NCBI GenBank assembly: GCA_021299385.1
Contig: JAJTGZ010000005.1
Coordinates: 1-53,372, forward strand
Direction of reading: 5' to 3'
Source of the DNA: Phycisphaeraceae bacterium
GTDB lineage: Bacteria; Planctomycetota; Phycisphaerae; Phycisphaerales; UBA1924
DNA: 53,372 nt
Below the pieces are notes generated by a model. It was not told the origin of the DNA. It ran no database searches and saw only the letters and a program-made list of their open reading frames with translations. This document shows, piece after piece, positions 1 to 2,316 of the stretch (position 1 is the first letter of the stretch; every line of letters starts with the position of its first letter). Both the position numbers and the translations under genes were made by a program.

Positions 1-2316
1 CCACACCGGCACCTGATGTCCCCACCAAAGTTGCCGGCTGATGCACCAATCCCTGATGCCATCGTGCCACTGCTCAAATGTCTTGGCGTAGCGCTCGGGT
101 TGGAAGGAGATGGTGTTGGCAGGATCACCTATTGCTTCCAGAGCACCCGAAGGGTTGGCGGGCGGGGACGCCCGCCCCACCTTTGGTGGGGTATCGGTGG
201 GGCGGGCGTCCTCGCCCGCCGTGGGTCCGCTCCCGGTGGGGCGGGCGTCCTCGCCCGCCGCCGCACCGCCCGCAGCCTCCGACAACACAACCCTCAAAAA
301 CCGATACTCCCCCGGCTTGGTCACCAACCCAGCCTTCACGGCATTGTTCTCAATATACCCAAGTTTCTCATCAAACTCCTCGGCGTCGCGGACGATGCGG
401 TCGAACCATTCATCCTGCCACACGCTCCCCTTTGTGCCGCGGGCCTTGTTGATCTCGTGTGCCGTGAACGACTTGATGCTGTGCATGATCTCGCCGAGTG
501 TGTGCCAGACACCATCCTCACGCTCGGTGGGCTTGACGAGCATGTGCACATGGTCCGGCATCACCACGACAGCAAAGAACCTCGCCCGCTTGCCGTGCCA
601 ATGGAAACAGGCGTCGAGGACGACCTGGCGTTCATTCTCGGTGAGCGTGCCTTTGCTGGTCCGGAACGTTACGAAGTAGGTGCTGCCGCCGCGCTCGAAG
701 TGGGGGAGGCGGCGGATGGAGATGGTTAGGTTTTCCGAGATGCCTTGGTCCCAGGTGTGGGGGATTGCAGAGCCAGCTTTGAAGGCTCGCTTGGGGAGGG
801 GTGAGAGAGATTGGGGTTGGTTGGAGGCAGGCGGGGACGCCTGCCCCACCACCTGGGATGCCTGCCCCACCCCTACGCCCGGTGGGGCGGGCGTCCCCGC
901 CCGCCGCACTTGTGCTGACGCTTGTGCCTCTGCCATGGCAGGCAAGGACGCCTGCCCTACCTTTGTTGTGTTGGAGGAGTGATCAGCAAGCGCCGCGTTG
1001 GCTGAGGCCGCCAGCCTCGGGTCGGTTACCTTCACATACCACTGGTCGCTCAAGTACGGCTCGATGATCGCCTTGCTCCGGTCGCTGTGCTTGACGCTGT
1101 GCCGGTAGGGCTTGGTCCCCTCGTGCCAGCCGCGGGCCTTGAACTCCATGACCACGAGTTTGCGGGCCTCCTCGCGCTTCTTGCCCAGGAAGTTGTGGGC
1201 ACCTTTGAGTTCGCTCGCGTCGCTCCAGCCGTGCTTGTCGCTGATCGTCGCGTCGGGTGCAAAGATGTTGACCACCGGCAGGTTGTGCCGCTGGCCGATC
1301 TCCCAGTCGTTGGGGTCGTGCGCCGGCGTTACCTTCAAGAACCCCGTGGCCATCTTCGCCTTCGGGTCGGCCTTCTCCTCGTCGCTGCGGGCGAACCGCT
1401 CGGGAAGCACAACATAACTGTCCTCGATGATCGGGATCACCCGCCCGATCAACGGCAGTTCAACATGCAGCCCACGCAGGGCCTTTGCCCTCGGGTCGTG
1501 CGGGTTGATAGCCACGGCGGTGTCGCCCAGGTAGGTCTCAGGCCGCGTCGTCGCAACCGTTACCCACGCCGGTGTGTCGTTCTCGTGCGCGGCGTCCTCG
1601 GGCAAAGCCCACCCACGCCGGCGGAGTTCGCCCCACGATACAGGCACCGCGTTCGCACCCTCGGGCACGTGCACCAATGGGTAGCGCAGGAAGTAAAAAT
1701 TCCCGTCGATCTCCTCGTCGTAGCACTCATCATCAGCCACGGCGGTTTGCAGCACCGGGTCCCAGTTGACCAGCCTCTTGCCGCGGTAGATCAGCCCATC
1801 CTTGAACAATCTGAAGAACGCCTCATAGACCGCCGAGGCGCACTGGGTGTCCATCGTAAAGCGCTGGCGGTCCCAGTCGCACGAGCAGCCCATGAGTTTG
1901 AGCTGGTTGGTGATCGTCGCTTCATACTCGTCCTTGAAGGCCTGAATCTTGGCGACAAACTTCTCACGCGAAAACTGCTGCCGGCGTAATCCCTCCTCCT
2001 TGAGCACGCGCTTTTCGACCACCGCCTGCGTCGCGATACCCGCGTGGTCGGTCCCGGCCATCCAGAGCGTCTCAAACCCCTTCATCCGATGCGCACGCAC
2101 CAAAATATCCTGCAGCGTGTTGTTCAGCGCGTGCCCAAGGTGCAACGCCGCTGTAACGTTCGGCGGTGGGATCAGCACGCAATAAGGCTCGGCCTCGCCC
2201 CGCAGCACACGCGATGGGTCCGCCGCGAATGCGCGTGCCACATCCCACCGCCCGCGGATGCGGGCCTCGTGCTCGGCGGGTATATACAACGGCGGCAGCG
2301 GCTCGGGCGTAGACAT
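1..2316 (-). CDS. valS: Valyl-tRNA synthetase (partial, interrupted in frame by a RAYT domain)
   Basis: Charges tRNA-Val with valine in the cytoplasm. Read from ATG at 2316 (MSTPEPLPPLY). The class I HIGH motif appears as HLGH in a PPPNVTAALHLGHALNN context. The CP1 editing domain follows (TTRPET, VTPAHDPNDWEIG), then SDQWYVKVTDP (near residue 424). Typical ValRS would continue straight into xFxPERYxKTxxxW-RDWCISRQLWWGH. Here that block reappears only at about 1-125 (PERYAKTFEQW ... DWCISRQLWWGHQVPVW). Between them lie about 275 extra residues (about 452-724) encoding REP palindromes and a Y1-type transposase. Read codon by codon, positions 1-1080 contain no stop in this frame, so the insert is continuous with both halves. 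The KMSKS half and C-terminus lie beyond the left edge. Confidence 0.93.
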   Translation of the reverse strand, partial: MSTPEPLPPLYIPAEHEARIRGRWDVARAFAADPSRVLRGEAEPYCVLIPPPNVTAALHLGHALNNTLQDILVRAHRMKGFETLWMAGTDHAGIATQAVVEKRVLKEEGLRRQQFSREKFVAKIQAFKDEYEATITNQLKLMGCSCDWDRQRFTMDTQCASAVYEAFFRLFKDGLIYRGKRLVNWDPVLQTAVADDECYDEEIDGNFYFLRYPLVHVPEGANAVPVSWGELRRRGWALPEDAAHENDTPAWVTVATTRPETYLGDTAVAINPHDPRAKALRGLHVELPLIGRVIPIIEDSYVVLPERFARSDEEKADPKAKMATGFLKVTPAHDPNDWEIGQRHNLPVVNIFAPDATISDKHGWSDASELKGAHNFLGKKREEARKLVVMEFKARGWHEGTKPYRHSVKHSDRSKAIIEPYLSDQWYVKVTDPRLAASANAALADHSSNTTKVGQASLPAMAEAQASAQVRRAGTPAPPGVGVGQASQVVGQASPPASNQPQSLSPLPKRAFKAGSAIPHTWDQGISENLTISIRRLPHFERGGSTYFVTFRTSKGTLTENERQVVLDACFHWHGKRARFFAVVVMPDHVHMLVKPTEREDGVWHTLGEIMHSIKSFTAHEINKARGTKGSVWQDEWFDRIVRDAEEFDEKLGYIENNAVKAGLVTKPGEYRFLRVVLSEAAGGAAAGEDARPTGSGPTAGEDARPTDTPPKVGRASPPANPSGALEAIGDPANTISFQPERYAKTFEQWHDGIRDWCISRQLWWGHQVPVW
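157..259. repeat. REP palindrome cluster, downstream side of the valS-embedded RAYT
   Basis: Three hairpin units lie at 157-181 (minus orientation), 196-220 and 235-259 (plus orientation). The last two are identical to each other. The head is GGTGGGGCGGGC, with a short loop and a complementary CGCCCGCC arm. In the valS frame they encode repeats of AGEDARPT type. With the cluster at 826-961 they bracket the transposase, the arrangement called a REPtron when it occurs outside genes. Confidence 0.85.
826..961. repeat. REP palindrome cluster, upstream side of the valS-embedded RAYT
   Basis: Three full GC-rich hairpin units about 25 bp long lie at 826-850, 881-905 and 937-961, with a partial unit at 851-871. 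Each is a GGTGGGGCxGGCG arm facing CGCCxGCC. The outer two read on the minus strand and the middle one on the plus strand, a BIME-like mixed arrangement. They are translated in the valS frame as low-complexity segments such as KVGQASLPA and VVGQASPPAS. Confidence 0.85.

Follow-up and report, generated by a model that had tools for sequence, protein, structure and literature searches.

The window analysed here comprises all 53,372 nucleotides of contig C87 from the assembly of a Phycisphaeraceae bacterium (GCA_021299385.1), a bin of 2.63 Mb that consists of 111 contigs and is 95% complete. The left edge of the window is the end of this contig and truncates the valS gene, which reads on the minus strand as a stop-free frame from the ATG codon at position 2316 up to the contig edge, as had been described in a previous reading of the letters alone (hereafter the sequence-only reading). 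The C-terminal half of ValRS, likewise open and including the KMSKS motif and the stop codon, was located at the end of contig C43 (positions 6364-4907). Contig C43 very probably continues the valS gene of the window, because the next gene on C43 is also found 3' of valS in 30 related loci; the link between the two parts of the split gene, which spans an unassembled gap between C87 and C43, is provided by conserved gene order and not by sequence. Searches of the bin with PF00133 and with a flank-joined ValRS query detected no second valS gene, which answers the concern that the copy in the window might be a pseudogene.

The Pfam domains found in the deduced protein are restricted to class I synthetase, LeuRS editing and Y1_Tnp domains. 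The tRNA-synt_1 match is split into two stretches, the second of which is followed by the Y1_Tnp domain at residues 577-658. A comparison with the empty valS gene of a relative (G035, L229) revealed an insert of 864 additional nucleotides, a multiple of three, with intact ValRS flanks on both sides, at a position where a loop of only about 4-13 residues is found in relatives. In the Thermus thermophilus ValRS structure 1gax, the insertion point falls between residues 363 and 377, after the editing domain, where the sequence-only reading had placed it; the site is presumably a surface loop. The central part of the insert encodes a REP-associated tyrosine transposase (RAYT) in which both the HUH motif and the tyrosine helix noted earlier are present. 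Separate translation of this RAYT appears unlikely, because the approximately 38 codons preceding its core contain no start codon; an internal start might lie further upstream. The coordinates of all features are compiled in Table 1.

Table 1. Features of the valS locus and its insert (positions refer to the window)
Feature	Position	Strand	Evidence
5' part of valS, 772 codons to the contig edge, insert included	1..2316	-	open frame; Pfam tRNA-synt_1; NCBIfam valS
ValRS HIGH-type motif HLGH	2131..2142	-	translation; invariant in alignment A3
In-frame insert (REP cluster, RAYT, REP cluster; ~288 codons)	112..987	-	empty-site comparison with L229; 1gax
REP, N-terminal side, opposite orientation	882..905	+	hairpin search
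REP, N-terminal side, GTGG head and GGCAGGCG-TCCC hairpin	826..849	-	hairpin search
RAYT domain, 149 aa	289..735	-	NCBIfam REP_Tyr_transpos (NF047646), 92.1 bits (cut-off 80); Y1_Tnp; solved TnpArep 4er8 matched by a profile of window RAYT relatives, E 2.4e-9; AlphaFold, confident separate domain
HUH motif (HVH, within DHVHM)	544..552	-	sequence; (nearly) invariant in alignments A1 and A3
Catalytic tyrosine codon, Tyr helix YIENNAVKAGLV (YIENN)	355..357	-	sequence; nearly invariant in A1 and A3
Inverted REP, C-terminal side, GTGG and GGCGGGCG-TCCT hairpin	236..259	+	hairpin search
Inverted REP, C-terminal side	197..220	+	hairpin search
REP, C-terminal side, opposite orientation	157..180	-	hairpin search
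ValRS resumes (ISFQPERYAKTFEQWHDGIRDWCISRQLWWGHQVPVW)	1..111	-	reading, 1gax mapping; remainder of valS on contig C43

The two REP clusters that had been noticed around the RAYT consist of five GTGG-headed hairpins with an 8-bp stem and a 4-nt loop, distributed over both sides of the transposase, and none is expected by chance. RAYTs have been described as genes flanked by a pair of inverted GT(A/G)G-headed REPs, and the REPs at 849(-) and 236(+) show the REPtron arrangement defined in that work (PMC2817692); the REP at 197(+) is inverted as well. According to an AlphaFold prediction, the window RAYT folds on its own, with pLDDT values of mostly 80-96, between disordered linkers encoded by the REPs, and it may also fold independently in the cell. 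The models of the window protein and of a second protein (L083) contain a confident RAYT domain and a poorly predicted synthetase core, the editing domain being confident in the window model, and therefore no claim about a surface loop was based on them. Only synthetases occurred among the matches listed by Foldseek.

The arrangement is not confined to this gene. A close match of the window RAYT (E 1e-18) is carried by 75 of 400 genomes of the order, and most of the close matches in relatives lie within open frames of 400-1700 codons. Reading of the flanks and NCBIfam scans yielded 98 different RAYTs that are embedded in a total of 11 host proteins, always in sense orientation and in frame: 36 in ValRS, 19 in RdgB, 16 in LeuRS, 9 in DUF1156 proteins, 7 in IleRS, 6 in PurH and one each in AlaRS, HscA/DnaK, MiaA, RecG and Kbl. 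The same genome contains a further example on contig C88, a complete leuS frame of 1221 codons (leuS_bact, 947 bits) with a second RAYT in frame. Because the hosts had originally been found through their open frame, the 35 other loci were searched for halves of these hosts in every frame; none directly flanked the RAYT, and the reference hosts thus showed no antisense or out-of-frame insertion in these loci. Most carriers are metagenome bins; the set also includes an RdgB-embedded RAYT in a single-contig chromosome of 4.1 Mb (L116, CP053450.1) and a RAYT in a DUF1156 host of the named strain Desulfoferrobacter suflitae DRH4 (L113). RAYT-bearing proteins of the anti-phage-associated DUF1156 family occur in many phyla (L091, L092, L102, L104, L105, L113, L127, L131 and L135), and they represent most of the carriers that are labelled as belonging to groups other than Planctomycetota, which include Verrucomicrobiota, Chloroflexota, Bacteroidota, Acidobacteriota, Thermodesulfobacteriota, Armatimonadota and Elusimicrobiota. 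In Phycisphaerales, free-standing RAYTs of this lineage are rare; they occur commonly in Deltaproteobacteria, Cyanobacteria and other parts of Planctomycetota, where the frames are mostly short.

The ValRS segment that extends from SDQW to the W preceding IRDWCISRQLWWGH measures 39-78 residues when empty and 223-327 residues when it contains a RAYT. The same segment comprises 109-150 residues in three genomes that lack a RAYT there and have low-complexity expansions instead, for instance repeated SKGLE (L245, L251 and L253). Seven comparisons of empty and occupied ValRS genes gave length differences that are all multiples of three, and empty and occupied sisters were detected within one genus. 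Among the embedded RAYTs that could be assessed for flanking repeats, 58 of 95 are bordered on both sides by matched inverted REPs with a GT(A/G)G head, compared with 0 of 475 shuffles. The stems always match within an element, and the hairpins differ between elements; in some LeuRS copies a GTAC head takes the place of GT(A/G)G.

The catalytic residues are widely retained, the HUH motif being matched in 97 and the tyrosine motif in 91 of the 98 embedded RAYTs. Clear catalytic losses were recognized on reading in L080, L049 and L151, and several of the other misses reflect contig cuts or the strictness of the search pattern. As judged from sequence comparison, the embedded RAYTs are under purifying selection, with dN/dS values of 0.09-0.47 in pairs with usable dS. 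On a RAYT tree with 131 rows, the host labels require 25 changes compared with 83.5 after shuffling. The RAYTs of MiaA and Kbl nest in the LeuRS clade, and that of HscA stands beside a ValRS copy. One IleRS clade (support value 97) spans two insertion sites, with L112, L114 and L137 at the one and L103, L119, L124 and L133 at the other, suggesting that the element may have moved within one gene. The window RAYT is not the sister of the same-site RAYTs in two genomes of the same genus. These trees are quick reconstructions with weak backbones, which leaves the number of origins as opposed to exchanges uncertain.

Occupancy of the ValRS loop requires 16 changes on a ValRS tree computed without the insert, close to the shuffled mean of 19.6 and hence near random. 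Essentiality of the host protein may protect the element, as suggested earlier, but occupancy has been gained or lost repeatedly, so that embedding in the essential ValRS does not prevent loss of the element over long times. In a Mantel test for ValRS, the distances of host and RAYT showed no significant correlation, as could result from exchange or from noise, and strict co-descent of the two is not supported. In the comparison of L089 with L087 and L090, the insert is more alike than the host gene at four-fold sites. The RdgB pair L195/L139 is only suggestive of homing by gene conversion, because a second block of high identity lies downstream and the pattern is thus not unique to the insert. 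This block, located downstream of rdgB at positions 2960-3659 of L195, displays 96-99% identity to L139 against about 87% in its surroundings.

Taken together, we assign a probability of roughly 0.7 to the reading that the window element is a complete REPtron in a loop of ValRS, translated as an unspliced internal domain, and that in Phycisphaerales its lineage is embedded almost exclusively in housekeeping enzymes. This agrees with the core of the sequence-only reading, a RAYT inserted in frame as a domain of an essential synthetase, and shows the arrangement to be far more widespread than that reading had supposed. According to the proposed course of events, the REPtron would have entered the ValRS loop in frame, and expression of the host gene would yield a synthetase-RAYT fusion protein that is presumably stable and active. 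The RAYT domain, tethered by flexible REP-encoded linkers, would retain its HUH/Tyr single-strand nuclease and act on cognate REPs, which it might thereby mobilise. The REPtron would be inherited with the host gene and at times be lost; at other times it would move to the equivalent loop in the gene of a relative in the manner of an intein, probably by strand transfer or by recombination across the conserved flanks as the route between genomes, and it would only rarely jump to another gene.

A purely passive origin deserves consideration before the others. REPs might have entered flexible linkers first, RAYTs arriving together with these REPs or inside them, and products out of frame would not have survived; nothing about the process would be intein-like, and the RAYT might be inert. 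The publication of intragenic REPs (PMC3733652), the tolerance of the ValRS loop for low-complexity expansions that lack a RAYT and the almost random scatter of ValRS occupancy all speak for such survivorship, which we nevertheless regard as unlikely: it leaves unexplained why RAYTs from different genera group according to their host gene, why the HUH and tyrosine motifs are retained together with low dN/dS values and why free-standing members are rare in the order. These same signs of selection and the long association with one gene and loop would fit a domestication of the RAYT as a useful synthetase domain, for example in DNA repair or regulation. The eleven hosts are functionally unrelated, however, the ValRS loop by itself accounts for 16 changes of occupancy, a single genus containing sisters with and without the insert, and some copies have lost the catalytic tyrosine or HUH motif, so that domestication is judged improbable and ranks behind passive survivorship.

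Removal of the insert before the enzyme works, either by protein splicing or by RNA excision, would account for its tolerance in essential enzymes and is considered very improbable. The Pfam scan found no Hint or intein domain, in line with the earlier description of the insert as intein-like but devoid of splicing motifs, and an intein was rejected on this basis. Rfam yielded no ribozyme or other match up to E 1 in positions 1-2400 of the window, and an IStron or group I intron was rejected because a self-splicing intron RNA was not found in this search; moreover, the linkers outside the RAYT keep the frame, which RNA excision would not require. The least probable explanation, given almost no weight, is an assembly artefact or a pseudogene, although the contig ends within valS and the sequence comes from a metagenome bin. 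The same architecture recurs in dozens of independent assemblies, among them the single-contig chromosome and the named strain, which also rules out a frameshift hidden by a sequencing error; the gene is the only valS of the bin, and its C-terminal half was located in conserved gene order. An artefact or pseudogene was rejected on these grounds.

The preferred reading of an embedded REPtron can be placed among known systems. With the REPtrons of TnpAREP (Y1 HUH) type the insert shares an HUH/Tyr transposase between inverted REPs and cognate REPs dispersed in the genome; known RAYTs have been described as separate genes, whereas the RAYTs reported here form in-frame internal domains, mostly without a nearby ATG. 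Inteins with homing endonucleases reside in frame at recurring sites of conserved genes, cluster by host gene, are patchily distributed and contain a DNA-cutting enzyme. Embedded RAYTs share these features, their distribution being patchy among relatives, but they lack a splicing domain, apparently stay in the protein, use an HUH single-strand enzyme and occupy length-tolerant loops. Tied to gene and site, yet patchy and apparently exchanged, they would behave much like intein alleles. The WHO elements of yeasts perform intein-like homing into FBA1 without protein splicing (PMC7282813); these elements are not related to RAYTs and substitute the 3' end of their target gene whenever they integrate, whereas here host sequence is found in the proper order on either side of the insert. 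Intragenic REPs and Rickettsia palindromic elements occur in frame in housekeeping genes, including those of tRNA synthetases, and encode only the repeat, 20-82 aa in length, without a transposase (PMC3733652); in contrast, the RAYT domain of the window insert is complete. The presence of REPs alone within genes is already published, and a literature search that covered few subscription journals or preprints found no report of embedded RAYTs, of transposase domains in synthetases or of planctomycete ValRS with IS200. A survey of TnpAY1 proteins put aside a few unexpectedly long ones, which it attributed to gene fusion or faulty annotation (PMC6006769), and the present set gives reason against discarding such long transposase fusions.

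The data point to a transposase lineage that appears to persist recurrently within indispensable proteins, in at least eleven unrelated hosts and apparently without self-splicing. Embedded RAYTs represent natural experiments in domain insertion and suggest an intein-like homing route via single-strand HUH chemistry. More tentatively, and at somewhat less than even odds, they may constitute a distinct class of mobile elements, with HUH-based, intein-like homing into loops of essential proteins, expression by the host and mature synthetases that keep an active ssDNA transposase. The idea that ValRS in the living cell might carry an active DNA nuclease lends itself to direct testing.

The bin contains 75 exact cores of the ValRS-type REP found in the window, compared with 4 for controls, and 62 copies of the REP core of the leuS RAYT (CCACGCTCCGCGTGG, with a GTAC head), often as inverted pairs, compared with 0 for controls. 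Two REPs of the LeuRS-RAYT type were also noted in frame in the C-terminal half of valS (L013; positions 6124-6165 of C43). About 60 of the 75 ValRS-type copies are located on small phage-like contigs and not chromosome-wide, with one orientation per contig. The REP-laden contigs C83 of G000 (L258), C103 (L259), C12 (L260) and C8 (L261) probably represent a phage or prophage in the same bin, with genes encoding phage terminase, portal, head protease, tape-measure, tail-fibre and primase proteins.
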